From positions 3,903,001 to 3,967,000 of the forward strand of contig NZ_CP084712.1 of the NCBI RefSeq assembly GCF_023822045.1: a DNA stretch of 64,000 nucleotides. The letters run 5' to 3'. The stretch comes from Sphingopyxis sp. USTB-05. GTDB lineage: Bacteria; Pseudomonadota; Alphaproteobacteria; Sphingomonadales; Sphingomonadaceae. Positions 1-32,396 of this stretch are shown piece after piece; within the stretch, counting starts at the first letter, position 1; every line of letters starts with the position of its first letter. A program made the translations under genes and the position numbers. The notes beneath the pieces were generated by a model that saw only the letters and a program-made list of their open reading frames with translations, searched no databases and was not told the origin of the DNA.

Positions 1-1
1 T

Positions 2-8444: not shown

Positions 8445-8489
8445 TGCTAGCCCGCGCCGCTAATGGGGTAATCAAGGGGAGAAGGGTCG

Positions 8490-12198: not shown

Positions 12199-12549
12199 AT
12201 GGCAAGCATTATACGTCTGAACAGCGGCCCCCGGATGAGCCAGGCCGTGATCCACAACGGTACGATATACCTTGCCGGCCAGATTGGGGTGCCTGGCGAA
12301 TCTGCGGCCAACCAGACCCAAGACATTCTTACCAAGATCGATGCACTGCTCGAGCAGAGCGGCAGCAACAGGTCGCACGTGCTTTTCGCGACCATCTGGC
12401 TCGCCGACATGGCGGACTTCGAGGAAATGAACGCCGTCTGGGACAACTGGATCGATCGCGAGGCTCCCCCTGCGCGCGCTACAGGTCAGTCTCGGCTTGC
12501 ACGGCCGGGTTGTAAGGTCGAGATCATCGTTGTCGCGGCTGTCAAGTAA
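12199..12549 (+). CDS. RidA/YjgF family protein
   Basis: A 116-residue RidA-fold protein (VIHNGTIYLAGQIG, then DILTKIDALLEQSGS, FATIWLADMADFEEMNAVWDNWI and PPARATGQSRLARPGCKVEIIVVAAVK). Canonical RidA hydrolyses reactive 2-aminoacrylate-type enamines; this looser subfamily often lies in catabolic operons where it may act on enamine or imine intermediates. The start ATG 12199 has GAAGGA seven bases upstream; an open extension to 12103 has no support. A weak hairpin AGCCtgatGGCT followed by five T lies after the stop at about 12581. The link to the amine operon 4 kb away is only suggestive. Confidence 0.82.
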   Translation: MASIIRLNSGPRMSQAVIHNGTIYLAGQIGVPGESAANQTQDILTKIDALLEQSGSNRSHVLFATIWLADMADFEEMNAVWDNWIDREAPPARATGQSRLARPGCKVEIIVVAAVK

Positions 12550-12735
12550 TCCGCCTTCGTTTCAAATTCGGCCGCGATGTAGCCTGATGGCTTTTTCTGG
12601 GTACAGCCCGCCATCGCCCGAACATTTAGTCTAATTAGATTGAGCCCCCTTTCGCCAGGGCCTGTTCCCCGCACCATCTTAAGAATGAACTCAGCCTCGC
12701 TGGACCTGCCGTGCGGCCACAAAAGGCGCTTGCAT

Positions 12736-12754
12736 TTGACGACCGGTCGGTCAA
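12736..12754. promoter_or_regulatory. Operator-like palindrome upstream of thiolase operon
   Basis: TTGACGACCGGTCGGTCAA has a perfect GACCGGTC core flanked by TTGAC and GGTCAA (one-base offset between arms). It lies 33 bases before the thiolase GTG and shares its right half with the palindrome at 8425-8444. It probably represses the thiolase-MaoC-acyl-CoA synthetase operon through a TetR-type protein encoded elsewhere. Confidence 0.5.
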
Positions 12755-12786
12755 TAAATGGGCCGAAAGTACAGAGGAGAGTTCTC

Positions 12787-13965: not shown

Positions 13966-13966
13966 G

Positions 13967-14410
13967 ATGGTTGACCTGTCGGTAATCGGAAGAACATGGC
14001 CGAAACGAACGATTGTTGCCGAGGAAGGTGCCCTGCGTTTCTTCGCAAAGGCCACGGGCGAGACCAATCCGGTCTACAGCGACGTGTCCGCTGCCAAGGC
14101 TGCGGGACACCCGGGACTCCCGTTGCCCCCAACCTATTTGTTCACGCTCGATTTGCTTGCGCCGTCTGAAACCTTCTGGCTCGATGACCTTAAGGTTCCC
14201 CTGGCAAAAGTGCTCCATGCAGAACAAAGCTTTGAGTATCGGCGAATGGCCTATGCTGGCGAAGAGCTGACGATCGAAACGAAGATCAGCGATGCCTATG
14301 ACAGAAAGGGCGGACTGCTCGAATTCATAGTGCGCGATATGACCGTCACCGATACCAAGGGAGACGAATGTGCGCTGCTCAAGACAACCCTGGTGGTGCG
14401 ACATGGCTGA
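13967..14410 (+). CDS. MaoC-like dehydratase, probably non-catalytic subunit
   Basis: A 147-residue single hot-dog domain of the MaoC/FAS1 dehydratase N-terminal group. The region that carries the Asp-His pair in active (R)-hydratases reads TGETNPVYSDVSAAKAAG here, lacking the His, while the next gene has the full GDHNPIHVD motif. Two such half-proteins usually form a heteromeric enoyl-CoA hydratase, as in the ChsH1-ChsH2 hydratase of cholesterol degradation. It starts one base after the thiolase stop and its stop overlaps the next ATG. Confidence 0.82.
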   Translation: MVDLSVIGRTWPKRTIVAEEGALRFFAKATGETNPVYSDVSAAKAAGHPGLPLPPTYLFTLDLLAPSETFWLDDLKVPLAKVLHAEQSFEYRRMAYAGEELTIETKISDAYDRKGGLLEFIVRDMTVTDTKGDECALLKTTLVVRHG

Positions 14411-14819
14411 CGAACCAGAAGTGATCTCAGTCGGCACCCGCTTGCCGGAGCACGTGCTGCCGCCGATCTCCCGCACCACCCTCGCGCTGTTTGCGGGGGC
14501 GTCTGGCGATCACAATCCAATCCATGTCGACATAGACTTTGCCAGGTCTGCCGGCATGCAAGACGTCTTCGCACACGGCATGCTGTCGATGGCTTACCTT
14601 GCGCAACTACTTACCGGCTGGATGCCCCAGGCCCAATTGCGTTCCTGGAAGGCCCGGTTTGTCTCAATCACCCCAGTTGGGGCGGTCGTTTCCTGCAACG
14701 GTGAGGTCGTCGAGCTTTTCGAAGTGGATGGTGAGCGACGGGCTCGCCTGAAGATCTTGGCCACGATCGGCGGCGACGTGCAAACTCTGGCCGGCGAAGC
14801 GGAGGTCGCGCTTCCATGA
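14403..14819 (+). CDS. MaoC-like enoyl-CoA hydratase, catalytic subunit
   Basis: A 138-residue hot-dog hydratase with the catalytic signature ASGDHNPIHVDIDFA and FAHGMLSMAYLAQLL. It adds water to 2-enoyl-CoA to give (3R)-hydroxyacyl-CoA, matching the (3R)-specific type of SDR at 2110. ATG 14403 overlaps the stop of the preceding MaoC gene, and its own stop overlaps the acyl-CoA synthetase start, so stoichiometric production of the pair is likely. Confidence 0.87.
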   Translation: MADEPEVISVGTRLPEHVLPPISRTTLALFAGASGDHNPIHVDIDFARSAGMQDVFAHGMLSMAYLAQLLTGWMPQAQLRSWKARFVSITPVGAVVSCNGEVVELFEVDGERRARLKILATIGGDVQTLAGEAEVALP

Positions 14820-16333
14820 CTGCAACCGTCATCAGTGGATCAAACCTGATCACCGGCAGTACCATCGACCAGCGCGCTGCCAAGGTGGCGACTGGATTGG
14901 CCGAGATGGGCATTGGAGCTGGTGACACTGTTGCAATCCTGCTCCGCAACGATCCGGTTTTCTTCGAAATTTCGTTTGGAGCAAACCTTCTGGGGGCAAA
15001 TGTCGTACCAGTAAACTGGCACTTCCGCAGCGATGAAGCCTTGTTCGTGATTGCCGACAGTGGTGCCAAACTGATTGTCGCTCACGAGGATCTCCTTCCG
15101 GTTCTCGGCGACCATTCGTCACTTTCATTGCCGATCCTGGTCTGTCCTGTCCCGCAAGAGGTCGCCGAGGCCTACGGCAGTCCGGTCTCGACAATCGATG
15201 AATGGGCGAGCTGGCGTGACAAGCATGCCGAATGGCGAGGCGAACCGCAGATCACCCGCTTCGGAATGATTTACACGTCGGGAACCACGGGCAAACCAAA
15301 GGGCGTGAAACGAGAGCCGGCAGATGCTGAGATGGCTAAACGCATGGCCGCGCTGATGGCGACGGCGCTCGGTCTTGTCCCTGGTCAGACAATACGTACA
15401 GTCATAACTGGACCAATTTATCACGCCGCACCCAACACGTACGCATTGGTAGCGGGCCGTGTCGGTGAGTTGGTGGTAATGCAACCGCGTTTTGACGCCG
15501 AAGGGCTTCTAGCGCTCATCGAGCATCACCGACTTACTCATGTTCACTTGGTACCGACTATGTTTGTGCGCCTTCTTAAGCTTCCCGAGCAGGTGCGCTC
15601 GAAATACGATCTGTCATCGCTTCGGTTTGTGGCCCACGGCGCAGCGCCCTGCCCGCCTGAGATCAAACAAGCCATGATCGCTTGGTGGGGGCCGATCATT
15701 CACGAATACTACGGCGGCAGCGAGACTGGTGGTGCCGTTTATCACAATTCCGAAGAAGCCTTGCGCAAGCCCGGAACTGTCGGTCGTGCAATGGATGGCT
15801 GCGCGATCCGCATTCTTGACGACGAGGGCAATGAGGTCCCAGCCGGGACCCCTGGCCATGTGTATATTCGTTCAACCAGTTTCCCGGACTTTACCTACCA
15901 TGGTCGCGATGCTGACCGCCTTGCAATCGAGCGCGAAGGCTTCGTCACGATCGGCGATATCGGGTTTCTCGATGAAGATGGTTATCTGTTCCTCTGCGAT
16001 CGAGCAAACGACATGATCATTTCGGGAGGGGTCAACATCTACCCAGCGGAGATCGAAGCCGTTCTACTTTCCCATCCAGGCATCGCAGACGCGGCCGTCT
16101 TCGGCGTACCCGACGCAGAGTTTGGAGAAGCCGTTTGCGCGGCGATTCAGCCTGCCGACATTGGCGGACCCGATGCCTCGGAAGTAAGGGCCTTTGTCCG
16201 CAGCAAGCTCGCAGCTTTCAAGGCTCCTCGGCACGTCGAATTCCACTCCACCCTGCCTCGTGAAGACTCCGGCAAGATCCTGCGTCGCTTGCTGAAGGAA
16301 CCACACTGGGCGGGAACCGGAAGGACAATCTGA
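14816..16333 (+). CDS. Acyl-CoA synthetase (AMP-forming)
   Basis: A 505-residue ANL-superfamily ligase that activates a carboxylic acid with ATP and CoA. Visible are the phosphate loop MIYTSGTTGKPKGVK (about 152-165), the HEYYGGSETGGAV adenine-binding motif, the hinge FVTIGDIGFLDEDGYLFLCDR and the C-terminal lysine region PREDSGKILRRLL. The N terminus is about 30-40 residues shorter than typical FadD proteins, but the start is fixed by the four-base ATGA overlap with the MaoC gene. It is the last gene of the thiolase operon and probably performs the entry step for this block. Confidence 0.9.
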   Translation: MTATVISGSNLITGSTIDQRAAKVATGLAEMGIGAGDTVAILLRNDPVFFEISFGANLLGANVVPVNWHFRSDEALFVIADSGAKLIVAHEDLLPVLGDHSSLSLPILVCPVPQEVAEAYGSPVSTIDEWASWRDKHAEWRGEPQITRFGMIYTSGTTGKPKGVKREPADAEMAKRMAALMATALGLVPGQTIRTVITGPIYHAAPNTYALVAGRVGELVVMQPRFDAEGLLALIEHHRLTHVHLVPTMFVRLLKLPEQVRSKYDLSSLRFVAHGAAPCPPEIKQAMIAWWGPIIHEYYGGSETGGAVYHNSEEALRKPGTVGRAMDGCAIRILDDEGNEVPAGTPGHVYIRSTSFPDFTYHGRDADRLAIEREGFVTIGDIGFLDEDGYLFLCDRANDMIISGGVNIYPAEIEAVLLSHPGIADAAVFGVPDAEFGEAVCAAIQPADIGGPDASEVRAFVRSKLAAFKAPRHVEFHSTLPREDSGKILRRLLKEPHWAGTGRTI

Positions 16334-16600
16334 CCCTTGCAATCTTTGCCATCAGTGCAGCGGGCAGCAGTCTTGAAGTTCCGGGCAATGGGCGAACTGA
16401 GCATGGCTAAGGCTGTACGAGGAGCCCGTTCAATCAGCCAAGCGTCATCTGCCCGGCAGCAAGGCGGCGACGGTCAAGCGATCTTGCGCCATCCGACCGG
16501 TACAATGCCTGCTTGAGCAACAAGTTCTTCGGCCGCACGTCGAGGTGGCGATCTTGCAACCAGCGCCGAGCTTGTGACGGACTGAGGAAGGTGCACAATT

Positions 16601-17677
16601 ATGACATCAGCGGGACCGCTCAAAGGCCTTCGCGTTATTGAATTTTCCGGAATTGGTCCCGCACCATTTGCCGCGATGCTGCTGGCAGACATGGGAGCCG
16701 ATGTTGTCCGAATTGATCGGCCGAATGCGCCGATGGAATATGTTCTAGCACGCGGCAAACGCTCGATTGCGCTCAACATGAAACAGTCGGCGGACCGAGA
16801 CATGGCCGTTGACTTGATCAAGCGCGCCGAGATCTTAATCGAAGGATTCCGACCCGGCGTGATGGAACGTCTTGGGCTCGGTCCGGAACCGATGCTCGCG
16901 ACCAATCCCAAGCTTGTATATGGGCGCATGACTGGTTGGGGGCAATTTGGACCTTTAGCCCAAGCCGCTGGCCATGACCTCAACTACATCGCTATCTCGG
17001 GCGCGCTCCATGCCATCGGCTCTGCGGATGGCCCACCGCTGCCGCCCTTGAACCTCGTAGGCGATTTCGGTGGTGGATCACTTTATCTCGCCATGGGTTT
17101 GCTGGCGGCGCTTAGCCATGCGCGGGCGACTGGCCAGGGTCAGGTCGTCGACGCCGCAATGAGCGACGGAGCAAGCTCGCTGATGGGGTTGTTTTATGGT
17201 CTCAAAGCCCGCGGCGAATGGAACGACTCGCGGTCTGCAAACTTTCTCGACGGAGCCGCTCCTTACTATCGCTGCTACCGTTGTGCCGATGGGAGTTGGA
17301 TATCCATTGCCGCAATCGAACCTCAATTCTGGACGGAGCTTCGCGAACGGGTTGGGCTTGTCGACCCGCTCTTCGACCGTCGGGATGATACCGCATCTTG
17401 GCCGGAGATATCTCGAGCTCTTGAAGAAATCTTTGCGACGCGAACTCGAGCGCAATGGTGTGATTTGCTCGAGGGAAGCGATGCCTGTTTCGCACCTGTT
17501 CTTTCTTTAAGTGAAGCTCCGTTACATCCGCACAATCAGGCCCGCGGCACCTTCACGGCCAATGCGCAGGCAGCACCCGCACCGCGATTCTCGGTGACTC
17601 CTGCCAATATTGGGCAAGAACCTCCTGCCACAGACGCCGATCGTGAAGCCATTTTGCGGGACTGGCTAGGCCATTAG
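16601..17677 (+). CDS. Alpha-methylacyl-CoA racemase (CoA transferase family III)
   Basis: A 358-residue CaiB/BaiF-fold protein. The segment [20 protein letters not shown] and [19 protein letters not shown] place His125 and Asp155 at the positions of the catalytic His126 and Asp156 of mycobacterial alpha-methylacyl-CoA racemase, which supports racemase rather than CoA transferase. The enzyme interconverts 2R and 2S methyl-branched acyl-CoA, a step needed for isoprenoid and sterol side chains. The ATG is preceded by GAGGAAGG. It lies 267 bases after the acyl-CoA synthetase, so it may have its own promoter. Confidence 0.9.
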
Positions 17678-18270: not shown

Positions 18271-18432
18271 CGATGGGTTTGCAGCAGGGCATCCCAGACA
18301 CCCTGTTCGGCCCAGCGACGGAAGCGGACATAGACCGAGTTCCACTTGCCGTAACGCTCGTGGATGTCGCGCCAGGGGCAGCCGACCCGCAGCACGTGAA
18401 GCATTCCATTGAGGAAGCGCCGGTTATCGCTC
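18270..18432 (-). mobile_element. IS5-family transposase remnant
   Basis: Reading the minus strand gives SDNRRFLNGMLHVLRVGCPW, then RDIHERYGKWNSVYVRFRRW and AEQGVWDALLQ. This is the conserved N-terminal domain of IS5-family (IS1031/IS427-type OrfA) transposases. There is no start codon, no DDE domain and no terminal inverted repeat; a stop lies two codons before the first matching residue. The fragment is sandwiched between the truncated PilZ-like gene and the stop of the S9 peptidase (18424), so the transposon end was lost by deletion. Confidence 0.75.
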
Positions 18433-20391
18433 TCTCAGCGTCCGCTCGAACCAGGCGACCACGCGCGTGAGAGAATCCATTTGGTTTTCGCGGCGCGAAA
18501 AGCCGTGGCCTTCTTCGGGATAATAAACTGCCTCGACCGTCCGCCCTCGTTCTAGCAGTCGGGCTTGCAGTGCCGTCGCTTCGCTCTTCGGGGTTCGAAT
18601 GTCATTTTCGCCCTGCAGGATCAGCAGCGGCGCCTCGATCCGATCGATATAGGTGGATGGGCTGGAACGCTCATATTGTTCAGCGTTTACTACCGGATCG
18701 CCGAGCAGATTGCGGACATAGGCCTGCAATACCGGCTCGGTGCTGGCCAGCAGGGTCTGCCAGTTGAGGATGCCGAAGAGATCAACTCCAGAAGCAAAGA
18801 CTTCGGGATGGCGCGCCAGCCCCATGACGGTCAGATAACCGCCATAGGATCCTCCCATGATGCCAACGCGGCGACGGTCGACATAACCGGTCGCCAAAAG
18901 AAAATTGACGCCGGCAACCAAATCGTCGAGATCGCTGCCGCCCAGATCACCTACATTGGCGAGCTGAAAATCCATGCCATAACCGGTCGAGCCCCGAAAA
19001 TTTGGTGCGATGACGACGAAGCCGCGGCTCGCCAGAGCGACTGCGTCGCGGTTGAAAAAATCCGAGATCTGCGCCGTCGGGCCGCCATGGGCCATAACAA
19101 CCGCCGGGGCTGTACCATCGCGCGCGAGATTGGGCGGAATCCATACAAAGGCGCTGATGACCAGTCCGTCCTTGCTGGGATAATGCACCAATTCGGTACG
19201 CGGCAGCCGGTCGCCGTCCAGCGCCGCCGGGCTGAGTTCGGTGATCTTGGCCGCGGTTTTCGAAGCCATGGAGTATGTCCAGAAATCATTCGGCTGATGA
19301 CCAGCTTGATGCCGGAAAAGCAGGGTTGCGCCATCGGCGGTGAAGGGGGACTGGCCGGAGGACGCGAAGCGGTTCATTCCTTCGGGCAGCAGCAGCGATT
19401 CGCTCTCGCCACGCCTGGCGTCATAGAGAAAGATGCCGCTGCGTCCCGATGCATTTTCCTCAAACGCGATATCCGGCCGCCCGGGGACGAACCAGCCGCC
19501 GCTCTGCGGCCACGGGCTGGAGCGCAGCCAACGGATCGCGCCGGTGTCTAGCGAAAGCAGGCCGCTGCGTCTGTTCTCGCCGGGACTGCTGGCAAAGAAG
19601 GCGATGCGGTCGCCTTCGTCGGAAAGATCCGAGGCAATCGCATAGACGCCCTCGCCGCTTGGTCCGAGGGGGTGGGGCGCCGACCCGTCGAGCGGGACGA
19701 GGATCATCGCGCCGTCAGTCTGCTGCACATTGAGACGATTGGCGAGCAGCGCCTTACCATCGGGCGTGAACTCTACCGGCGCCCAACGATAGCCGGGTGC
19801 ATCTTCTGCAATGAGTGTCCGGCGCTTACCTGTCGCGATGTCCAAGACCGCAAGGTCAAAGTTCGAGGCATTCGCCTCGCGGCTGCTGAACGCCAGAAGG
19901 CGACCGTCATAAGAACCGACCGCGCCGATTTCAGATGTGTCGGGGCTTGCAGTCACGTTGCGCTCTGCCCCGGTCTCGAGATCGAGCAGGATCAGGTCAT
20001 ACATTTCGCGGCCGCCGCTGTCAGTCTCATACACGATCCGCTTCCGATCCGGCAGCGCTATGGGGTTCAATTGTCGATCAGGCGAGCGAGAGGCCGATCG
20101 GGGTCTGTCGCCAGCGCGGTCAAGCGTCCAAAGGTTAAATGGCCCATCAAGATTAGCTGTCGCGAGGATCGTCTCGCCGTCATCTATCCAAATCGCTCCA
20201 AACGCATCCTTGGCCGCGAAGAGTTCCTCGACGGATGGAACCAGCGGCCGGGAGAGCGACTGACTTTTGACCAGCAAGGGGTCGGTCAACGGCCGTGGAG
20301 GTTGCCCTTCCTCGCCGGAGGCGTTTCCGGGGATGAAAAGGAGGATGAGCGAAAGGGTGATGGGCCATCGGCGAGGAAATAGGCTGTGCAT
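18424..20391 (-). CDS. S9 family peptidase (prolyl oligopeptidase type), secreted
   Basis: A 655-residue serine peptidase. A signal peptide occupies the first ~25 residues (ITLSLILLFIPGNASG). Residues ~60-390 form a beta-propeller with repeated WTLD/LDLETG-like blades. The C-terminal alpha/beta-hydrolase domain has Ser515 in IMGGSYGGYL, Asp597 in QGENDIRTP and His629 in EEGHGFSRREN. Such enzymes cut short peptides, often after proline, in the periplasm; lasso-peptide isopeptidases belong to the same family. It is divergent from the esterase/sigma/receptor operon, which ends in a second S9 peptidase, so the two probably serve one pathway. The IS remnant touches its 3' end. Confidence 0.9.
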   Translation of the reverse strand: MHSLFPRRWPITLSLILLFIPGNASGEEGQPPRPLTDPLLVKSQSLSRPLVPSVEELFAAKDAFGAIWIDDGETILATANLDGPFNLWTLDRAGDRPRSASRSPDRQLNPIALPDRKRIVYETDSGGREMYDLILLDLETGAERNVTASPDTSEIGAVGSYDGRLLAFSSREANASNFDLAVLDIATGKRRTLIAEDAPGYRWAPVEFTPDGKALLANRLNVQQTDGAMILVPLDGSAPHPLGPSGEGVYAIASDLSDEGDRIAFFASSPGENRRSGLLSLDTGAIRWLRSSPWPQSGGWFVPGRPDIAFEENASGRSGIFLYDARRGESESLLLPEGMNRFASSGQSPFTADGATLLFRHQAGHQPNDFWTYSMASKTAAKITELSPAALDGDRLPRTELVHYPSKDGLVISAFVWIPPNLARDGTAPAVVMAHGGPTAQISDFFNRDAVALASRGFVVIAPNFRGSTGYGMDFQLANVGDLGGSDLDDLVAGVNFLLATGYVDRRRVGIMGGSYGGYLTVMGLARHPEVFASGVDLFGILNWQTLLASTEPVLQAYVRNLLGDPVVNAEQYERSSPSTYIDRIEAPLLILQGENDIRTPKSEATALQARLLERGRTVEAVYYPEEGHGFSRRENQMDSLTRVVAWFERTLRER

Positions 20392-20565
20392 ACCCTCATG
20401 ATGACTGCGGAGAGGTTTTCCGCCATTAAGTCTGTTGTAGGGCCAGAGATCGAAATTGGCGCTACATAGAAGCGCGCGCTCGATTGAAATCCCGGATAGG
20501 CATTACGGAAGCCGTCTCCTCATGCATCGATACAAGATGTAGCTTTAGCTGAGGGGACATCCTTG

Positions 20566-22227
20566 ATGATCGCGCGACGAAATGTCCTGCGGGCCGGTAT
20601 ATTTGGTTCTGCCTTTCCCTTGCTCGATAGTTCGATTGCAGTTGCGACAACCGGAACCGACCAGAAATCGGCCAAGGATCGCGTGGAGACGGGGATTATA
20701 TGCGACACACCTAGCGGTAGAGTGCGCGGTGTCCGCAAGGGTGGTGTCCGGATCTTCCTCGGCCTCCCCTATGCTGGACCCCTTACCTCGGCACACAGGT
20801 TTTCTCCTGCGCCCCTTCTCGCGCCTTGGGCTGGAATACGGAATGCGTATAATTATGGGCCGATCTGCCCAAGTGAAGACCGTCAAGGCGATGAGAGCGC
20901 GAGTGAATGGCCATTCCTCCTTCAGCGCGGACCTGTAACGCTGGCGGGCGACGATTGCCTGCGGCTCAACATTTGGGCGCCCGCTTCGGGTGATCGACCA
21001 AAGCCCGTGATGGTTTGGCTGCATGCCCAAGGATTCGGCGGCGGATCGAGCCAGCATTTCCTTGCGACGAACGGGGAAAATCTCGCGCGCGAGCAAGACG
21101 TCGTTGTCATCAGTCTGAATCATCGGGTGGGCGTACTCGGCTATGCCGATTTGTCGCAGGTTGCTGGCGGAGACGAGGATTCGGGGAACGTCGGCATGTT
21201 GGACATCATTGCCGCGCTCCGCTGGGTACGGGATCATATTGCAAGTTTCGGCGGGGACTCCGATAATGTGACGATCTTCGGCCACTCGGGCGGCGGTTTC
21301 AAGACCAGTGTCCTGCTTGCAATGCCTGCGGCAAACGGCTTGTTTCACAAAGCGATCATTCAAAGCGGCGCGCGGCCCTTTGTCCATGACCGGGTCAGCG
21401 CCGCCGCGCTTACGAAAGCCTGGCTTGACGCTCTGGGGGCGCCTGAAGCGAATGTTTCCGAGTTGCGCGCTATGCCAGTATCTCGCTTGCTTGAGGCCGC
21501 TGGCAAGGCCTCAGCGGGCGTCCAGCGCAGCGCCGGTCGACCGGCGGATTTTCATCCCCCCGCTTGGTATTGGCAGCCGTTGGCGGGTGTGCCGAGCCTG
21601 CCGGACCACCCCTTTGGCGAGAAGGCGCCTGTCTCATCGAGGAGTGTACCGTTGATGATTGGCCGCACACATCATGAATTTCCGCGAAGCGTCGACGCGC
21701 CCGAAAATGAAGCGATGGACTGGGAGCAGCTCGCAAAGAATCTGTCTGCTGAGCTTGGCCGCCGTACGGACGGCGCCATCGCCGCTGCCCGCGCGGACAA
21801 CCCGGCAGCCCCGCCGGTCGAAATCGCAGCGATCTTGTCTGGACGACATTTCCAGATGGGCAGCGAACGCATGGCAAGGCTTCGCGAGGCGGCCGGCCAA
21901 GCGCCGACCTGGATGTATCGTTTTGATTGGAAAACCGAGTTGTTCGACGGTCGACCGAGGGCCTATCACGGCGCCGACGTGCCGTTTGTCTTTGCCAACA
22001 CTGACCTGTGCGACCAGGCGACTGGCGGCGGCGATCGCGCACGCCGTTTGTCGCGCGTGATGGCCAGCTGCTGGGCCCGGTTTGCTCGGACAGGAAATCC
22101 CAATGGTCCAGGCCTCCCGCATTGGCCGCCGTTTGCCGGATTGGCTCCGTCGACGATGATTTTCGATGATGATCGCCGCGTGCGCGCCAACCTCGAGCCG
22201 GCGCAGCGGCGATTGTTTCGGCCATGA
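20566..22227 (+). CDS. Type B carboxylesterase, exported
   Basis: A 553-residue esterase of the carboxylesterase/para-nitrobenzyl esterase group. The N terminus (MIARRNVLRAG plus a hydrophobic stretch) looks like a signal sequence with twin arginine. Landmarks are VRGVRKGGVRIFLGLPYA, DDCLRLNIWAP, the oxyanion strand and the nucleophile elbow IFGHSGGGFKTS (Ser241), which has His-Ser-Gly-Gly-Gly rather than the common Glu-Ser-Ala-Gly; the catalytic His is likely in YHGADVPFVF. ATG 20566 follows GAGGGG. Its stop overlaps the ECF sigma factor start by four bases, an unusual arrangement that ties the enzyme to the sensing system. Confidence 0.88.
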   Translation: MIARRNVLRAGIFGSAFPLLDSSIAVATTGTDQKSAKDRVETGIICDTPSGRVRGVRKGGVRIFLGLPYAGPLTSAHRFSPAPLLAPWAGIRNAYNYGPICPSEDRQGDESASEWPFLLQRGPVTLAGDDCLRLNIWAPASGDRPKPVMVWLHAQGFGGGSSQHFLATNGENLAREQDVVVISLNHRVGVLGYADLSQVAGGDEDSGNVGMLDIIAALRWVRDHIASFGGDSDNVTIFGHSGGGFKTSVLLAMPAANGLFHKAIIQSGARPFVHDRVSAAALTKAWLDALGAPEANVSELRAMPVSRLLEAAGKASAGVQRSAGRPADFHPPAWYWQPLAGVPSLPDHPFGEKAPVSSRSVPLMIGRTHHEFPRSVDAPENEAMDWEQLAKNLSAELGRRTDGAIAAARADNPAAPPVEIAAILSGRHFQMGSERMARLREAAGQAPTWMYRFDWKTELFDGRPRAYHGADVPFVFANTDLCDQATGGGDRARRLSRVMASCWARFARTGNPNGPGLPHWPPFAGLAPSTMIFDDDRRVRANLEPAQRRLFRP

Positions 22228-22829
22228 CCGACTTGGTCCCCACCGACCGGGCTATATGGATATCGCGGCATGTGCTCCCACATGAGCGAGCCTTGCGCGG
22301 TTGGCTGGCCAAATATTCGGCCAGCGCCATAAATATCGACGACATTGTGCAAGAAAGTTACGCGGCAATCTTCGATCTTGCGACCGTTGATCATATTCGT
22401 CGGCCGCAAGCCTATTTGTTCGAAATCGCACGCTCAATCATTTTGCAGCAACTCCGGCGGGCACGAATTGTCCCTATCCATAGCGTGGCTGACGTCGCAC
22501 TTCTCGACCGGCCTGACGATCAGCCCAGCCCGGAAGACATTGTGGCGGGCCGACAAGAGTTGCATCAGCTGGCGGACGCCGTCGCACAGCTCCCGCCACG
22601 CTGCGCGGAGGTTTTTCGGCTGCGAAAGATCGATGGTCTGTCCCAGCGTGACACTGCAAGCGCGCTCGGTATCTCGGAGAATACCGTCGAAAAGCAGATA
22701 GGGAAAGCCATCCGCGTTCTGTCCGACATACTCGGACGTGGCGGAAAACAAAGGCCCGATGCATCTAAGGCGCGAAAAGTAAACAGGAAAGATAATGATG
22801 GAACCCCGCGAGACCAGTTCGGCGATTGA
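22224..22829 (+). CDS. ECF sigma factor (FecI-like)
   Basis: A 201-residue RNA polymerase sigma factor. Region 2 is in DDIVQESYAAIFDLATVDHI and RPQAYLFEIARSIILQQLRR; region 4 is LPPRCAEVFRLRKIDGLSQR followed by DTASALGISENTVEKQIGKA. FecI-type sigmas are activated when a FecR-TonB receptor pair senses an extracellular ligand. The gene overlaps the esterase stop upstream and the FecR start downstream, so the regulatory pair is built into the operon and probably autoregulates it. Confidence 0.92.
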   Translation: MTDLVPTDRAIWISRHVLPHERALRGWLAKYSASAINIDDIVQESYAAIFDLATVDHIRRPQAYLFEIARSIILQQLRRARIVPIHSVADVALLDRPDDQPSPEDIVAGRQELHQLADAVAQLPPRCAEVFRLRKIDGLSQRDTASALGISENTVEKQIGKAIRVLSDILGRGGKQRPDASKARKVNRKDNDGTPRDQFGD

Positions 22830-23760
22830 GGCCGCCGCAATCGGCTGGGTTGCCAAGCTCGATCGTGGGCCGCTGTCGGAAAACGAGAGTGCGGCGCTCG
22901 ACGCCTGGCTGACCAGTGATTCTCGCCGGCGCGGGGCATTCGCGCGTGCGCAAGCCGTGATGGCGCTTGCCGATCGGTCTCGGGCATTGCGGCAACCTGA
23001 CTCCTTGGGGTGGGACGCGAGGAAGTATTTTTGGCGATGGCCGTCGATCCGTGCAGAACGGTGGCCGAGAGTAGCTGTTGTAGCATGCATCGCGCTGCTG
23101 ATTGGCTGGGCAGCATTGCCCGGCGCTGAAACGATTGCGACGCAGCGCGGCGAAATCCGCATGGCCGTCTTGTCTGACGGTTCACGTGCAACGCTTGATA
23201 CCAAGAGTAATCTTGTAGTGCGGTTTCAGCGTTCGCGCCGTGATGTTGAGCTGCTTGAAGGCACGGCACTTTTTGACGTGGCGAAGGATCGCGAGCGTCC
23301 GTTCGTCGTTCACGCCGGGCCGATCGATGCGATTGCGGTCGGAACAAGCTTTAGCGTGACGCGCGACAGGAGCGGGGAGGCTGTTGTAACGGTCCGCGAA
23401 GGGCGTGTTGCCATCCGCGACCGGAAAGGGCGGATAACCCATATACTGACAGCCAATATGACAGCGAAGGCAGATGACGAGGCGGCGACGAGCGTAGCGA
23501 AATTGACGACAGAGGACGTGAATCGCGAACTCGCCTGGCGTTCGCACATGATTGCGCTCGATGGCGACACCTTGACCGAGGCGGCTGAAAAATTTGCCCG
23601 CTATGGCGGTCCGCCTATTGTGATCGCCGATAAAGCAGTCGGTTCGCGGACGCTTTCCGGCTGGTTCGCAGCCGACGATCCGCGCGGCTTCGCTCGCGCG
23701 GCCGCATTGTCGCTTGGCGTACGCGCTCGCGAGAAGGAAAATTCGATCATCATCGAGTGA
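22795..23760 (+). CDS. FecR-type anti-sigma/signal transducer
   Basis: A 321-residue inner-membrane protein. The N-terminal DUF4880-like segment (AAAIGWVAKLDRGPLSENES and DAWLTSDSRRRGAFARA) contacts the sigma factor. One membrane helix lies at about residues 82-104 (VAVVACIALLIGWAALPG), and the periplasmic FecR domain follows (RGEIRMAVLSDGSRATLDTK, ELLEGTALFDVAKDRERPFV, VGTSFSV). Tandem ATGs at 22795 and 22798 follow AGGAAAG; the start lies within the sigma gene. It receives the signal from the STN domain of the receptor encoded 78 bases downstream. Confidence 0.92.
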   Translation: MMEPRETSSAIEAAAIGWVAKLDRGPLSENESAALDAWLTSDSRRRGAFARAQAVMALADRSRALRQPDSLGWDARKYFWRWPSIRAERWPRVAVVACIALLIGWAALPGAETIATQRGEIRMAVLSDGSRATLDTKSNLVVRFQRSRRDVELLEGTALFDVAKDRERPFVVHAGPIDAIAVGTSFSVTRDRSGEAVVTVREGRVAIRDRKGRITHILTANMTAKADDEAATSVAKLTTEDVNRELAWRSHMIALDGDTLTEAAEKFARYGGPPIVIADKAVGSRTLSGWFAADDPRGFARAAALSLGVRAREKENSIIIE

Positions 23761-23826
23761 AGATATGGCGGAAGCTTCTGCGCCATGCATCGAGAGATGA
23801 ATGGGTCGTGACTTGGCCCGCAAATT

Positions 23827-23835
23827 GGGGGGGGG
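23827..23835 (+). repeat. Nine-G homopolymer at the receptor ribosome-binding site
   Basis: A run of nine G ends three bases before the ATG of the receptor gene and occupies the Shine-Dalgarno position. Homopolymer runs of this length slip during replication; a change in length would alter the spacing of the translation signal. Confidence 0.7.
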
Positions 23836-23838
23836 CAT

Positions 23839-26800
23839 ATGGCGAAATATCAAACAGCTTTTCTGGCAGGCGCAGCAATTTCAGCACTCGCGGTCGCGGC
23901 GCCCGCCGCCGCGCAGGAGCGGGATTTCAACATTCGCTCGCAGTCTGCGACAACCGCCATCCCCGAGTTCGCGCGCCAGGCCCGCATCCAGATCGTCGCC
24001 CCGGCGGATACGCTGGTGGGGGTGGTGACCCCGAGCATCCGCGGCTCGCGCGACATAAGGGTTGCGTTAGCCGAACTGCTGCGGGGCAGCGGTCTTGAGA
24101 TTGTTTCGGATAATGGCCGGGTCATCGTGTTGCGCCGTGTCCCACAAGGCTCGGCGGCGGAATTCTCCGCCGCCGAGCCCGAAGCGGAAATTATCGTGAC
24201 GGGATCGCGGATACAGGGAGCAGGATCGGTAACCGCCGCGCCGGTGGCGCAGCTTCGAGGCGATTCGGTTGTCACGCGTAGCGGTAGCATTTCGATCGGG
24301 GACCAGCTGAGCCTTCTGCCTCAGTTCCGGACTTCGGGCACTCAGGCGGCATCGACAGCGCTAGGCACGCAAGCGCCAGGACAAGTCGGGATCAACCTTC
24401 TCGACTTGCGCGGCCTCGGGCCAACGCGAACGCTGGTTCTCCAAAATGGTCGTCGGCTGGTCTCGAGCACGCAGCAAATCTCGCAGCCTGACACCAACAC
24501 GATCCCCGCGGAGTTGATCGACCGCGTCGATATTCTGACCGGCGGCGCGTCGAGCGTCTATGGCGCCGATGCAATCGCAGGGGTCGTTAATTTCGTTCTG
24601 AAGCAAGATTATGAGGGGCTGTCGCTCCATGGGCAAGCGGGGATCAGCGATCGAGGCGACGCAGGCGCTCGGACGATTGGCCTCGTCGCCGGGCATAACT
24701 TCGCAAGCGACAGAGCGAATGTGGCAATCGCGCTCGAATATGCGCAGCGCGACGGATTGCGATACACGGATCGCGAATTTTCCAATGGTCAGTCGGACTT
24801 TATCCAGAATCCGCTGGCCGCCCAGGCTGGTCAACCTTTGACCATCCCGATCAATGATATCCGCTTTTTGTCCTATTCCAACGGTGGAACGCTACCTTAT
24901 GGTCCACCCTTCTATCGCTTTCAGCCAAACGGTACCCTCGCGCCAGCAAACACCGGGACCGCAAGCTATCCCAATCTCGGCATCAGCGACGGCGGCGATG
25001 GCTATGGTCCGATTGAAGCCGGCTCCTTGCTCCCGGACAATGAGCGCTTCTCGGGGACTTTGCTTGCGCATTTCGGCGTCACGGACGCGATCACCCTGTT
25101 CGGGCAAGCTGATGTTATCTGGCAGCGCTCATCCGCATTTAGCGGACCGCTCATCCAGCAGTTCGTCTTTTCGAAAACCAATCCCTATCTTTCATCGCAG
25201 GCGTTGGGCGTGCTCAACGCTTATGGCCCGACGGCGGCTGGACCGGATTTTGTCGCCGTCCGAGCTCTTACCGACGTCGGAACCTTTGGTGAGCGCGATA
25301 CGCGCGAGACCTATCGCGGCGTCATTGGGGCGAAGGGTGAGCTTAGCGACCATTTGCGCTACGAACTTTCCTACAGCTACGGTCGGACGAACGTCGAGAC
25401 CAATTTCTTCAACAATGTCATCATCCCGCGCACGACCTTGGCCGCGGATGCGGTCATCGACACGGCTGGCGTGCTTGGCACCGTCGGTGCGATTGTTTGC
25501 CGGTCCCGCCTGAATGCGCCCACGAGCACAAACCCTGATATTGCCGGCTGTGCGCCCGCCAATTTCTTTGGAAATGGCGCCGTCACCCCGGCAGCGCGCG
25601 ATTATCTGGCGATTACAACCACGTCTCGGGGCAGATTGCAGCAACATCTTGCCGGGGGCTTTCTCGCTGGTGACACGGGGGGATTTCTAACTTTGCCGGG
25701 CGGCGCGATTGGGTTTGTCGTTGGCGCCGAGTTTCGCCGGGAATCGACCCGCTATACACCTGATCCCCGTGACACGCTCGGTCGGACACAGTCGGGCGGG
25801 GCCGGTGTCGCAGGTTCGGTCGAAGTGGTCGAGGCTTACGGCGAGCTCAAAATTCCCGTTTTGGCTGACCTTCCTTTTGCCAGGCGGCTCGAATTAGGTG
25901 TTTCGGGGCGCCTCAGCGATTATAATTTGTCGAGGGTCGGAACCACGACATCCTGGGGTGTGAGCGCCTTATATCAGCCGGTGCGCGATGTGACGCTTCG
26001 CGGATCCTATCAGCGAGCCGTGCGCGCGCCCAATGTCACGGAGCTGTTTCAACCCACGCTGACCGGGACGACGCAGATCACCGATCCTTGTGATGCGCGT
26101 TTCATTGCGCAGGGTACATCTACTCGGCGCGCCAATTGTGCGGCCCTCGGCATCCCCACGAATTTTCAGACGCCGACCATTCCGATCACAATCGCTACCG
26201 TCACGAGCGGGAACCCCGATCTCGATGTCGAGCGGGGTACCACCTACAGCTTTGGTGCGGTCCTGCAGCCAAGCTTCATCCCGCGTTTCAGCCTGTCGGT
26301 CGATTATTACAACATTGAACTCAAGGGAGCGATTGCGGGCGTGAATAGCACGACGATCAGCCCATTCCGCGTGCCGTCGCAATGCGTGGACGCGCCGACC
26401 CTCGACAATCCCTTTTGCCCGCTCGTCGAGCGCGACGCGGGGTTCAACATTACGCGCGTCACGCAATATCCGATCAATCTGACGCGGTTGACGGCCTCGG
26501 GCATCGATGCTGACTTGAGCTATCGGATGCCATTATCGAGCGATGCAGGTATTTCGTTTCGTGGCCTCGCAAGTTATGTGATCAAGCGTGACGACTATCG
26601 CTCACCGGCTCTTCCCGACTTCCGCACGCAAATCGTCGAAACCCCGAGTTCGCCCCGGTTTCAAGCAACTTTGGCAACGACGCTAACGCTGGGGCCGGTG
26701 GAATTAACCCATCGAGCCCGGTATTTCTCGAGCGTATATTACAAGAATGATGACGTTGCCTTCTTTGAAAGTGTGAACGGCGCGGCACCCTTAAATGTCA

Positions 26801-27015
26801 ATCGCCGTGCACCGGGTTGGGTGAAGACCGGCTCCTACAACTATCACGACCTTCGGCTTGGCTTTGATTTTGGCGAGGGACGCAGCTTCTATCTCGGCGT
26901 CGACAATCTTGCCGACAAAAAACCACCCTTCAGCATATACGGTGCTGGCTTCGGCGGTGCCCAGTTCGATAGCGTGGGTCGGCTGTTCTATGCCGGTTTC
27001 AGGGTGGCGATGTGA
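23839..27015 (+). CDS. TonB-dependent receptor with N-terminal STN signalling domain
   Basis: A 1058-residue outer-membrane transducer. After the signal peptide (AVAAPAAAQ) comes an STN domain at about residues 30-100 (FNIRSQSATTAIPEFARQAR and VALAELLRGSGLEIVSDNGR) that talks to FecR. The plug begins near residue 118 with EIIVTGSRIQG and contains GVNLLDLRGLGPTRTLVL-like and DILTGGASSVYGADAIAGVV motifs. The barrel is large and ends with FYAGFRVAM. This receptor type (like those with oar/peptide-uptake relatives) fits a bulky ligand. A nine-G tract lies at the ribosome-binding site. The stop overlaps a GTG of the next gene. Receptor class is certain; ligand unknown. Confidence 0.93.
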   Translation: MAKYQTAFLAGAAISALAVAAPAAAQERDFNIRSQSATTAIPEFARQARIQIVAPADTLVGVVTPSIRGSRDIRVALAELLRGSGLEIVSDNGRVIVLRRVPQGSAAEFSAAEPEAEIIVTGSRIQGAGSVTAAPVAQLRGDSVVTRSGSISIGDQLSLLPQFRTSGTQAASTALGTQAPGQVGINLLDLRGLGPTRTLVLQNGRRLVSSTQQISQPDTNTIPAELIDRVDILTGGASSVYGADAIAGVVNFVLKQDYEGLSLHGQAGISDRGDAGARTIGLVAGHNFASDRANVAIALEYAQRDGLRYTDREFSNGQSDFIQNPLAAQAGQPLTIPINDIRFLSYSNGGTLPYGPPFYRFQPNGTLAPANTGTASYPNLGISDGGDGYGPIEAGSLLPDNERFSGTLLAHFGVTDAITLFGQADVIWQRSSAFSGPLIQQFVFSKTNPYLSSQALGVLNAYGPTAAGPDFVAVRALTDVGTFGERDTRETYRGVIGAKGELSDHLRYELSYSYGRTNVETNFFNNVIIPRTTLAADAVIDTAGVLGTVGAIVCRSRLNAPTSTNPDIAGCAPANFFGNGAVTPAARDYLAITTTSRGRLQQHLAGGFLAGDTGGFLTLPGGAIGFVVGAEFRRESTRYTPDPRDTLGRTQSGGAGVAGSVEVVEAYGELKIPVLADLPFARRLELGVSGRLSDYNLSRVGTTTSWGVSALYQPVRDVTLRGSYQRAVRAPNVTELFQPTLTGTTQITDPCDARFIAQGTSTRRANCAALGIPTNFQTPTIPITIATVTSGNPDLDVERGTTYSFGAVLQPSFIPRFSLSVDYYNIELKGAIAGVNSTTISPFRVPSQCVDAPTLDNPFCPLVERDAGFNITRVTQYPINLTRLTASGIDADLSYRMPLSSDAGISFRGLASYVIKRDDYRSPALPDFRTQIVETPSSPRFQATLATTLTLGPVELTHRARYFSSVYYKNDDVAFFESVNGAAPLNVNRRAPGWVKTGSYNYHDLRLGFDFGEGRSFYLGVDNLADKKPPFSIYGAGFGGAQFDSVGRLFYAGFRVAM

Positions 27016-27515
27016 TCACCGCGCTATTGTTGGCGGCAGCTTCGCCGGCCGTGCCCGACTGGTCGGGGCATTGGGAGGGGACGCTCATCAACTTCCCCGA
27101 ACGGGGGGGCGCTCCGCCCATAACGATCAGTCGGGACATCGGGCCTTGGCCGACGCAGGACGCGACCTGCACGCCTTTTGTGACGACTTATCGTGAGGCT
27201 GGCGTAGTAAAGGGGGTCAAGGACTACAAGCTTTGTCGCGGAACGGGCGCCGACGATCTTTACATCGACGAAGGTGCGGTGCCCGAAGGTCCGGATGTTC
27301 GCCTCCCTGCGCGCCTTTTCGGCGACACGCTCGTCAGCATCTTCAAATATCGCGACCTGTTGCTTCTCGTATCGACGCAAACGGCGGGCGGCATCATGAC
27401 TGAGGATATCGTCACTGCTAAGGACGTACCCGCCGGCGATGCCGTCGTGCAATTAAATGGCAGGTCGCTGCAGCGCCTCGAGCTTCGGCGTAGCGAGAAG
27501 GGTCACGCCCCATGA
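27012..27515 (+). CDS. Secreted protein of unknown function
   Basis: A 167-residue protein that I do not recognise. It starts with a short hydrophobic leader (ITALLLAAASPAVPD), then a beta-rich, lipocalin-like stretch with DWSGHWEGTLINFP and RLFGDTLVSIFKYRDLLLLV. Only two cysteines remain after the leader (TCTPF and KLCRG), which could form a periplasmic disulfide. The GTG start overlaps the receptor stop and its stop overlaps the FKBP start by four bases, so it is co-translated with both. Position suggests a periplasmic ligand-binding or accessory role; this is inference only. Confidence 0.7.
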   Translation: MITALLLAAASPAVPDWSGHWEGTLINFPERGGAPPITISRDIGPWPTQDATCTPFVTTYREAGVVKGVKDYKLCRGTGADDLYIDEGAVPEGPDVRLPARLFGDTLVSIFKYRDLLLLVSTQTAGGIMTEDIVTAKDVPAGDAVVQLNGRSLQRLELRRSEKGHAP

Positions 27516-28009
27516 TCGGAGCCGAGAAGGTCCGCCGCCTCAGCGGCTCGGCCAAGGCAGCCGTGATGCTGGCCGCCATCGGTTGTGCGAGCACTTCTCA
27601 GCCATTCGCGTTTGCAAAAGAGTCGAACTCTACCGCATTTCTTAATCGTAACGCCCGCGAGCAAGGCGTCGTCGTGCTCCCAGGCATTCAATATAGGATT
27701 CTGGCATCGGGATCACAGGATGGCGACCATCCCAAACTGTCCGGCAATCTGACCGTTCATTATGAGGGCAGCTTGCCCTCCGGCGAAATTTTCGACTCCT
27801 CTTTCGCGCGGGGTGACCCGGATACATTTAAGGGGCGTGAAGTAATTCCGGGATGGCAAGTCGCTCTGAGGTTGATGCGCCCCGGCGATGAATGGATGGT
27901 CTATATCCCGGCGGAGCTTGCCTATGGGGCAAAAGGTGCGGGGCCGATTCCCCCTGACAGTGCGCTCATATTTCGCATTCATCTGATATCTGCGGCGGCG
28001 GAGCAATGA
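27512..28009 (+). CDS. FKBP-type peptidyl-prolyl cis-trans isomerase, exported
   Basis: A 165-residue protein with an N-terminal export signal (VMLAAIGCASTSQPFAFA; an imperfect lipobox around Cys25 is possible) and one FKBP domain from about residue 60: LTVHYEGSLPSGEIFDSS, VIPGWQVALRLMRPGDEWMV, YIPAELAYGAKGAG and IPPDSALIFRIHLI. FKBPs rotate X-Pro peptide bonds. Here the gene is sandwiched, with four-base overlaps on both sides, between a secreted unknown protein and a prolyl-oligopeptidase-type peptidase, which suggests it prepares proline bonds in an imported peptide or folds its operon partners in the periplasm. Confidence 0.9.
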   Translation: MIGAEKVRRLSGSAKAAVMLAAIGCASTSQPFAFAKESNSTAFLNRNAREQGVVVLPGIQYRILASGSQDGDHPKLSGNLTVHYEGSLPSGEIFDSSFARGDPDTFKGREVIPGWQVALRLMRPGDEWMVYIPAELAYGAKGAGPIPPDSALIFRIHLISAAAEQ

Positions 28010-29970
28010 TTGCGGCACCATTCCTGCGCAGTTTGGGCGCTATGCTGCTTGCGCTTGGAGTCTCCGCTGCTGCACTCGGCAGTTCGCAGCAGTCCAGGTC
28101 GCCGGGGCGCGATATTCAAGAGGTAGGCGCGGCGCGCCTGGAACATCTGCCTCTGATTAAGGAGGCAGATCTCGAAGCCGCTCGCGCATATGAATCGCTT
28201 CGCGGCGTCAGTCTGCTCGATTGGTTTGAGGATGGCTCCTTGCTCATCCAGGCGCGAGACGGCGCGGCGAACCAGCTTTTTCGCCTGGCCGCGCCCAAAG
28301 GAATGCGGCAGCAGCTTACCACCGCGGCTGATCCCCCTATTATCGGCTTTCCCCTGGCGGGCGGTGGTTTCGCCTACATCCGCGATGCGGCGGGAGACGA
28401 ATGGTACGAAGTCCTGCTCGCTGGAATTGGTACGGCCCCGCGGCGGCTCAGCGAGCCCGATACGCGAAATCTTCTGACGGCGGTCAGTCCCGACCGACGA
28501 CACGTAGCTTGGGCGAGCGTCGCGCGCGGTTCCGCCGAACATGAGGTGGTTGTTGTCGATGCGTCCAAGCCCGACCTGCCAAAGCGCGTCTACAAGGACG
28601 CGGGCTCGGCCTTTCCGGTGGCTTTCTCGAACGATGGCAATCGCCTCATAATTTCGCGCCAAATCGCGCCAACCGAACGTTCGATGGTACTGGTCGATCT
28701 GGTCACGGGAACGACAACGCCGGTCGCCGGCGAGCAAGGCGCGATGCTCCGCGACCCCCAATTCTTTCCCGATGATCAATCGATAATCTATGTCAGCGAT
28801 GCGGGATCGGATGCGATGCGGCTGGTCAGCCTTGACCTGCGGAGCGGCAAGCAGCGCGACCTTACGCGGCGCAGCGGATGGAATGTCGAGCTATTCGACT
28901 TGGCGCCTGATGGGAGATCGGCAGCCTATACTGTCAACGCCGACGGCTATTCCGAGCTTTATCTGATCGATATTGCAAGCGGTCGCGTGCATCCTGGCCC
29001 GAAGTTGCCCCGCGGCGTTATCTCTACCTTGCGTTATTCTCCCGACGGCAGTCGGATCGCCTTCGGGCTTGCGACGGCGACGTCGCCCGGCGATGTGTGG
29101 GTCTTGAGGCTCGCAGGGCAAAAGCTCGAGCGCTGGACAATACCGGACTCGGAAATCGCGTTGACGGATGGGTTTATCGAACCAAAGCTGATCCGTTTCC
29201 GGTCATTCGACGGTCTCCAAATTCCAGCGTTTCTATATCGTCCCGAGACCGCCAAGGCGAACGTACGAATACCGGTCATCATCGATTTCCACGGTGGTCC
29301 GGAGGATCAGGCAAGGCCCGTTTATAGGAGCGACCTACAATATTATGCTCGGTCGCTCGGCGCGGCTGTCATTCAGCCCAATGTTCGGGGAAGCGCAGGT
29401 TATGGCAAGCACTTTATGAGCTTGGACAACGGAATGAAACGCGAGGACGCGGTTCGCGATGTCGGCGCATTGCTTGAGTGGGTCGCTAGCCAACGCGACT
29501 TGGACCCGAAGCGCGTCATCGTCTCGGGCGGTTCCTATGGTGGTTATCTCACTCTTGCCAGCCTGATCCATTATCCGGATCGCCTTGCCGGAGGGGCCGA
29601 TGCCTATGGCGTATCCAATTTCATTACATTTCTCGAGAGTACGGCGGAGTATCGACGGGCCCTCCGGCGGCCTGAATATGGCGACGAGCGCGATGTAGAA
29701 ATGCGGAAATTTCTAAAGGCGATTTCTCCGCTCACGAATGTGGAGCGCATGCAGAAGCCATTGCTTGTGATGCAAGGGGCCAATGATCCGCGGGTCCCGC
29801 GATCGGAATCAGATCAAATCGTCTCGGCATTGCGGGCGCGAGGAATTCATGCGCCATATATCCTTTTCGGTGACGAGGGCCATGGTTTTCGCAAAGAAGC
29901 GAATCAGACGCTCCGTATCGCTGCCCAAGCCACCTTCATGGCCGCGCTGTTCAGGAGTTCAGGGCGGTAA
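28006..29970 (+). CDS. S9 family peptidase (prolyl oligopeptidase type), secreted
   Basis: A 654-residue paralogue of the minus-strand S9 peptidase. A signal peptide covers residues 1-28 (AMLLALGVSAAALGS). The propeller shows repeated blades ending LDLRSGK or IDIASGR. The hydrolase domain has Ser510 in VSGGSYGGYL, Asp594 in QGANDPRVP and His626 in GDEGHGFRKE. It is the last gene of the esterase-sigma-FecR-receptor operon, its start overlapping the FKBP stop. It probably degrades the receptor ligand after import; lasso-peptide isopeptidases in related bacteria have the same fold and the same receptor/sigma neighbours, but no lasso-peptide synthesis genes are present here. Confidence 0.91.
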   Translation: MIAAPFLRSLGAMLLALGVSAAALGSSQQSRSPGRDIQEVGAARLEHLPLIKEADLEAARAYESLRGVSLLDWFEDGSLLIQARDGAANQLFRLAAPKGMRQQLTTAADPPIIGFPLAGGGFAYIRDAAGDEWYEVLLAGIGTAPRRLSEPDTRNLLTAVSPDRRHVAWASVARGSAEHEVVVVDASKPDLPKRVYKDAGSAFPVAFSNDGNRLIISRQIAPTERSMVLVDLVTGTTTPVAGEQGAMLRDPQFFPDDQSIIYVSDAGSDAMRLVSLDLRSGKQRDLTRRSGWNVELFDLAPDGRSAAYTVNADGYSELYLIDIASGRVHPGPKLPRGVISTLRYSPDGSRIAFGLATATSPGDVWVLRLAGQKLERWTIPDSEIALTDGFIEPKLIRFRSFDGLQIPAFLYRPETAKANVRIPVIIDFHGGPEDQARPVYRSDLQYYARSLGAAVIQPNVRGSAGYGKHFMSLDNGMKREDAVRDVGALLEWVASQRDLDPKRVIVSGGSYGGYLTLASLIHYPDRLAGGADAYGVSNFITFLESTAEYRRALRRPEYGDERDVEMRKFLKAISPLTNVERMQKPLLVMQGANDPRVPRSESDQIVSALRARGIHAPYILFGDEGHGFRKEANQTLRIAAQATFMAALFRSSGR

Positions 29971-32253: not shown

Positions 32254-32270
32254 TCCCGTAGGGGTCACCA
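32254..32270 (+). repeat. Copy of tRNA-Glu 3' end (probable att site)
   Basis: TCCCGTAGGGGTCACCA is an exact 17-base duplicate of the last 17 bases of the tRNA-Glu gene (32380-32396), including the encoded CCA. Upstream bases do not continue the tRNA. Such partial 3'-end copies are the usual scar of site-specific integration at a tRNA gene. It lies where accessory debris on the left meets the catabolic region on the right. Confidence 0.6.
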
Positions 32271-32321: not shown

Positions 32322-32396
32322 GGCCCCTTCGTCTAGCGGTCAGGACGCGGCCCTCTCACGGCTGAAACACGGGTTCGATTCCCGTAGGGGTCACCA
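32322..32396 (+). tRNA. tRNA-Glu (anticodon CTC)
   Basis: The sequence folds as a cloverleaf: acceptor GGCCCCT pairs with AGGGGTC, the anticodon stem CGGCC/GGCTG encloses loop CTCTCAC with anticodon CTC, and the T-arm is CGGGTTCGATTCCCG. The CCA end is encoded. It matches bacterial tRNA-Glu in the D-arm TCGTCTAGCGGTCAGGAC. No integrase gene is adjacent. Confidence 0.93.

Follow-up and report, generated by a model that had tools for sequence, protein, structure and literature searches.

The window analysed here is a 64,000-base stretch of the genome of Sphingopyxis sp. USTB-05 (contig NZ_CP084712.1, positions 3,903,001 to 3,967,000), itself a single contig of 4,679,489 bases, in which eight genes between positions 18424 and 29970 probably constitute a peptide-scavenging locus controlled by cell-surface signalling of the FecIR/TonB kind, a reading to which we assign a probability of roughly 60%. 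The first-pass annotation, made from the letters of the window, had read them as a candidate system for sensing, importing and digesting proline-containing peptides, a view that was supported in part. The assembly is more than chance: the order of sigma factor, FecR, receptor and an unknown protein recurs in a second lineage, together with domain fusions and shared promoter-like sites. Coordinates without a genome prefix are window positions, G000 is the window's own genome, and other genomes and loci carry G and L numbers.

Gene content of the locus

The eight open reading frames (ORFs) are present at the following coordinates.

18424..20391, minus strand: S9a, exported peptidase of the S9 family, transcribed divergently from the operon (PF00326, 166.9 bits; signal peptide recognised by eye)
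20563..22227, plus strand: type-B carboxylesterase (PF00135, 301.9 bits; start TTG at 20563 or ATG at 20566)
22224..22829, plus strand: FecI-like extracytoplasmic function (ECF) sigma factor (Pfam region 4, 53.6 bits; region 2, 30.4 bits)
22795..23760, plus strand: FecR-type anti-sigma regulator (PF04773, 69.3 bits; DUF4880, 35.8 bits)
23839..27015, plus strand: TonB-dependent receptor (Pfam barrel, 107.7 bits; plug, 53.5 bits)
27012..27515, plus strand: 167-residue protein, predicted 10-strand beta barrel, S9-peptidase-associated domain
27512..28009, plus strand: exported FKBP-type proline isomerase, activity predicted (PF00254, 81.5 bits; curated cut-off 21.1)
28006..29970, plus strand: S9b, exported S9-family peptidase (PF00326, 131.9 bits)

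Seven of the eight products have Pfam matches, and the tight coupling described in the first-pass annotation, with most junctions overlapping by about four bases, holds in that four of the six junctions overlap by exactly 4 nt; the sigma and FecR genes overlap by 35 nt, and a gap of 78 nt separates FecR from the receptor. The ECF sigma and FecR genes adjoin the receptor gene, as in FecIR-TonB cell-surface signalling. The esterase carries a Tat-like signal, a motif spotted by eye, and its relatives are p-nitrobenzyl esterases and, more weakly, a fumonisin B1 esterase. For both S9a and S9b the best solved relative is 5l8s, 'Amino acyl peptidase'.

The barrel protein and its fusions to S9 peptidases

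Neither Pfam nor NCBIfam gave a match to the 167-residue protein at the thresholds applied. Its predicted barrel was compared with calycin barrels (nitrobindin, fatty-acid-binding proteins), to which it shows 5-20% identity with a Foldseek E-value of only 0.012; a conserved histidine, as expected of heme-ligating nitrobindin barrels, is absent from the family alignment A1. When long homologues were sought with words from the barrel domain, with candidates restricted to about 440-1400 residues, all 73 long proteins carrying the domain proved to be S9 peptidases by their PF00326 match, 70 of them with the motif GxSYGG, and in every case the barrel domain is C-terminal, ending at most 16 residues from the C-terminus. 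The named ones that were inspected belong to Chloracidobacterium, Pyrinomonadaceae and an Acidobacteria metagenome-assembled genome, and in the S9 tree these fused peptidases occupy a different branch from S9a and S9b.

As a stand-alone protein the family, which also has such members in Acidobacteriota, gave 17 matches, the window's own among them, and its distribution is sparse: 3 of 80 genomes of the genus, 4 of 298 of the family (one of them, G217, weak, with an E-value of 3e-4 within a 1153-residue frame), and a single genome, the window's own, of 398 sampled across the phylum. One of five genomes in the genus of G253 and the one genome in that of G022 also have it, and a search against plasmids gave no match.

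Orthologous operons and FKBP fusions

Searches with the barrel protein led, beside G000 and G678, to G757 (genus search) and to G253 and G022 (family search), with loci designated L080, L018 and L017, respectively; the name attached to protein P0034 assigns L018 to Sphingomonas colocasiae. Both L018 and L080 hold, in this order, genes for a sigma factor, FecR, a receptor, the barrel protein and then one long protein. Identity to the window is 37-50% overall (sigma factor 40-41%, receptor 49-50%), and the receptor matches reach 994 bits in L018 and 1028 bits in L080. The long protein is an S9A prolyl oligopeptidase (PF02897 and PF00326) with a C-terminal FKBP domain, its best solved relative being 4hvt, 'Post-proline cleaving enzyme' (311.6 bits); its gene overlaps that of the barrel protein by 4 nt in L080 and starts 5 nt downstream of it in L018. 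The FKBP and the unknown protein are thus no random neighbours of the peptidase, as the first-pass annotation had supposed. Because the barrel is fused to S9 peptidases and an orthologous operon ends in an S9A-FKBP fusion, the barrel, the FKBP and the S9 peptidase appear to work together as a set, as far as sequence comparison can suggest.

Where the window has S9a, both relatives have another enzyme divergent from the sigma gene:

L018:15311-18913 and L122:571-3387: M13 metallopeptidase with N-terminal extension, divergent from the orthologous operons

In L080 the N-terminus of this metallopeptidase matches DUF4886 barely above the cut-off (26.9 against 26.7), and the same match is not listed in L018. 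In G253 a putative esterase (PF00756, 35.9 bits) lies downstream of the fusion gene. The esterase and the flanking peptidase singled out in the first-pass annotation therefore recur in type, as an esterase/hydrolase-type protein and a divergent peptidase, though in other families, and the window appears to have the same roles (divergent peptidase, esterase/hydrolase, peptidase-FKBP) filled by other genes. After its orthologous operon, G253 has a further group of sigma factor, FecR and receptor, accompanied by an S9 peptidase (L018:439-5313, L081:8440-10377). The next-best receptors, in G044, G090 and G215, score about 571-586 bits; no match to sigma factor, FecR, barrel or FKBP was found near them in the stretches read (only 7.4 kb for L120), so these receptors represent another clade.

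A word search based on the FKBP portion of the L080 fusion retrieved 15 long proteins: seven S9A-FKBP fusions (query included), three M3-type peptidase-FKBP proteins and five others. Two of the seven are named, both sphingomonad, and the window FKBP can be aligned with the FKBP domain of all seven oligopeptidase fusions. The M3-type peptidases carrying FKBP domains (P0035-P0037) are a second kind of peptidase-isomerase fusion. No published prolyl oligopeptidase-FKBP fusion was apparent by title among the literature matches listed. Prolyl oligopeptidases are known to cut only after trans bonds, which would give the FKBP its use; none of the papers listed in a literature search on this requirement addressed it.

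Candidate promoter sites

The pattern GGAA-N14-C[AG]TC occurs 15 times in the window, counting both strands, and three occurrences lie just before genes of the locus:

20507..20528, plus strand: GGAA-N14-CATC, candidate ECF promoter 34 nt upstream of the esterase gene
23770..23791, plus strand: GGAA-N14-CATC, candidate ECF promoter 47 nt upstream of the receptor gene
20400..20421, minus strand: weak, doubtful candidate site GGAA-N14-CATC, 8 nt before the S9a start

The esterase and receptor sites have in common the longer string CGGAAGC-N8-CATGCATCGA, found at just these two places in the window, and the spacing of GGAA-N14-C[AG]TC recurs before sigma and before receptor in L018 and L080. Across the three loci, each of the six expected zones holds one site, consistent with autoregulation, and 0.24-1.66% of zone shuffles hold one. 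For the S9a zone the corresponding figure is 0.94%, with a very short leader; we regard that site as doubtful because 8 nt is too near the start codon.

An integrative island carrying mlr genes

The operon is located on an integrative genomic island of 116,098 bases (repeat to repeat), which reaches beyond the window and is recognised by its integrase gene, tRNA end repeats, foreign composition and an identity above that of its flanks. Its GC content is 0.598 (two flanking tRNAs included) against 0.63-0.65 around it. On the left the island starts at the 3' end of tRNA-Glu(TTC), next to which lies the integrase ORF (PF00589 at 22.5 bits, below the cut-off of 27.1; DUF6538 at 42.5 bits, above its cut-off). 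Within the window, the island and its right border comprise the following.

1..17677, no strand assigned: right part of the mlr-island core (CoA, aminotransferase, S58 peptidase and receptor genes), by alignment with G850 and G242
32255..32270, plus strand: attR, 3'-end copy of tRNA-Glu(TTC), a 16-bp exact repeat of G000:C1:3819173-3819188
32322..32396, plus strand: tRNA-Glu(CTC), just outside the island, 51 bp past attR (ARAGORN)

From G000:C1:3819110 to window position 32272, and thus including window positions 1-32272, no difference was found from G678, another species of the genus, in a comparison that left 99 G678 bases aside. The left flank aligns with G678 DNA at only 80-88%, and the right flank, after the tRNA, at 85-86% with a place in G678 some 250 kb away. 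At a distance of 8.3 kb from the island-adjoining tRNA, G678 carries 47 bp (G678:C1:4037712-4037758) that repeat the 3' end of tRNA-Glu, which might reflect the entry of a second small element. The 14-kb island end had only a 75-bp match among plasmids, at the tRNA. Most of the 78 G000 matches to window positions 32322-38322 are taken up by a dispersed repeat of roughly 100-170 bp (window about 35240-35414).

The mlr cluster lies on the same island, about 20 kb from the operon, in the order C-A-D-B, with products of 532 aa (M81/MlrC_C), 336 aa (Rce1-like), 426 aa (POT transporter) and 541 aa (beta-lactamase fold); since it lies left of the window, this setting was missed from the window alone. 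Among 397 genomes drawn from the family, two besides G000 have a near-identical MlrA, G850 (93%) and G242 (88%); five others have relatives at 30-37%. With these two genomes G000 shares a core of some 33 kb (about 3,887,550 to 3,920,670), aligned at about 72-90% and ending near window position 17671; further, smaller pieces of the island are also shared by G850 and G242. The operon begins 750 bases after the core end. S9a, S9b, esterase, barrel and FKBP had no tblastn match at 1e-10 in the 160 kb (G850) and 200 kb (G242) surrounding mlr, the G242 stretch giving weak matches to unrelated receptor, sigma and FecR genes only. Of the mlr genomes examined, G000 and G678 therefore have the operon, and the stretches read in G850 and G242 lack it. 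A place in the shared core is not borne out; the operon is accessory cargo between the core and the right end of the island. In our best reading, the locus rides the mlr island in this capacity, which suits a host living on cyanobacterial peptides.

Two groups of neighbouring genes deserve mention. In the core, at 3798-8114 on the minus strand, genes for a C26 amidotransferase-type peptidase, a class III aminotransferase, an FAD oxidoreductase and an S58 (DmpA-type) peptidase stand in a row, enzymes plausible for the gamma-glutamyl and beta-amino-acid parts of microcystin. Left of the window, at G000:C1:3859844-3863477, are ORFs that by eye resemble phenylacetate (paa) genes. USTB-05 is described as a microcystin and nodularin degrader in PMC9144602, where paa genes are also reported. 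The mlr island itself is already in print in PMC6563193, which gives islands of 60.3 kb (C-1) and 130.0 kb (B-9) and whose text mentions neither tRNA nor integrase nor TonB.

Proposed function and alternatives

In the proposed mechanism, a peptide, perhaps ester- or proline-bearing, would bind the receptor, and the signal would be relayed to the sigma factor by way of the N-terminal domain of the receptor and then FecR, as in other members of the family. Judging from the candidate sites, the sigma factor may then switch on an esterase-sigma unit and a receptor-peptidase unit. The receptor would import the peptide into the periplasm, where, as the fusions suggest, barrel protein and FKBP act with the S9 peptidase: the barrel protein may bind the peptide or present it to the peptidase, and the FKBP may turn Xaa-Pro bonds into a form that the peptidase can cleave. 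The carboxylesterase may strip ester groups.

Several observations weigh against this reading. The signalling domain at the receptor N-terminus is a weak STN match (PF07660, residues 50-100, E-value 9.4e-6, 25.8 bits against a Pfam cut-off of 28.4). L018 and L080, being 74-84% alike, represent a single lineage, not two, and the promoter pattern was drawn from the same loci in which its sites were counted, so that the six occupied zones are a consistency argument only. The co-occurrence expected by the first-pass annotation is seen in L018 and L080, but not in G022, where the 3.4-kb contig L017 keeps the receptor end and the barrel gene and the next 2.6 kb encode, in place of FKBP or S9, two unnamed proteins and a patatin-like one. 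The nearest relatives of S9b are mostly chromosomal S9 genes, with no TonB receptor nearby in 16 of 17 loci, the exception being L049, where receptors, FecR and sigma adjoin. What the first-pass annotation named as refuting evidence is therefore partly present. In the tree S9b pairs with an S9 protein of G181 (support 100/94), and S9a sits on a long branch with unsure placement. The S9A propeller PF02897 is absent from the Pfam matches of both S9a and S9b (threshold E-value 0.01); they are not of the S9A prolyl type, and the window's enzymes need not be proline-specific. Of the proline idea, the part that stands is the fit with an FKBP fused to an S9A prolyl oligopeptidase: the idea, itself a suggestion from sequence, is grounded in the FKBP and the orthologous fusion and not in S9a or S9b. 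For the substrate, we infer a peptide class only.

Another possible explanation assigns the locus to the microcystin/nodularin pathway itself, as its means of sensing the toxin and taking it up across the outer membrane; the receptor would deliver the toxin, of roughly 1 kDa, to MlrA and MlrB in the periplasm. Its position on the island of mlrCADB, directly after the conserved core, would agree with this, and of five recognised island receptors it is the sole one with sigma and FecR genes adjoining. The accessible part of PMC12474180 leaves the outer-membrane entry of microcystin open. A literature search for work joining microcystin, mlrC and TonB-dependent found none; one listed paper, PMC6771000, brings together microcystin, TonB, Sphingopyxis and the outer membrane. 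We nevertheless consider the explanation unlikely: the operon is missing from the stretches read around mlr in both G850 (160 kb) and G242 (200 kb), the barrel protein was not found in the whole G242 genome, and in G757, which has an orthologous operon, the only relative of MlrA is at 33% and lies on a different contig. Microcystin, moreover, is not known to contain proline.

A role in folding, by which the FKBP and the barrel would serve the large receptor and the exported enzymes while the locus imports some other nutrient, appears to us similarly improbable. FkpA- and Mip-type FKBPs of the periplasm are known chaperones, and the window FKBP comes near the barrel-assembly family BamJ of NCBIfam (93.5 bits, cut-off 100), but in the relatives the FKBP is fused to a peptidase, not to a receptor, and S9 peptidases are the fusion partners of the barrel domain. 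The link to lasso-peptide isopeptidases, drawn in the first-pass annotation, fared worst. As a general set, an S9 enzyme with FecI, FecR and a TonB receptor is what an AtxE-type locus that had lost its biosynthetic genes would leave; this origin is most improbable, as S9a (65.8 bits) and S9b (23.7 bits) both fail the isopeptidase model NF033523 (cut-off 400 bits) and the true member in the genome, at 493.6 bits, is encoded far from the locus (G000:C1:2489447-2491237).

The peptide-scavenging reading can be extended, tentatively and with more doubt than confidence, to isomerase-coupled proteolysis. On this view the locus would be a machine dedicated to import, and a peptide-binding barrel of calycin fold would work together with an FKBP directly on what the S9 peptidases cleave. 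Such partnerships would have evolved as fused proteins in two lineages and, in another, as separate genes of one operon. On the mlr island the set would form a second module, serving cyanobacterial peptides that carry proline or ester groups and are distinct from microcystin.

Significance

Through the fusions an uncharacterised family, the S9-peptidase-associated barrel, gains its first functional lead, and the S9A-FKBP fusion would allow a test of whether proline isomerisation limits the breakdown of peptides in the periplasm. For the mlr island, the analysis defines both ends exactly, points to a likely site of integration and shows that two species have it in nearly identical form; a regulated receptor on it is now available as a candidate for peptide sensing.

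Comparison with known systems

The locus resembles FecI/FecR/FecA signalling in its ECF sigma factor, FecR, receptor with a weakly matching N-terminal signalling-like domain, gene order and candidate autoregulation-like promoter sites; it differs in having the barrel, FKBP and S9 peptidase genes downstream and the esterase gene upstream, and nothing in this analysis points to iron citrate as the ligand. In the lasso-peptide isopeptidase (AtxE2) loci of sphingomonads, an S9 enzyme likewise stands beside FecI, FecR and a TonB receptor, whereas the S9 proteins of the window fail the isopeptidase model. Like the published mlr island (PMC6563193), the island studied here contains mlrC-A-D-B together with the roughly 33-kb shared core, but the operon lies outside that core. 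Finally, prolyl oligopeptidase of the S9A type is present, FKBP-fused, in the orthologous operons; in the window the S9 enzymes are of other types and the FKBP has a gene to itself.

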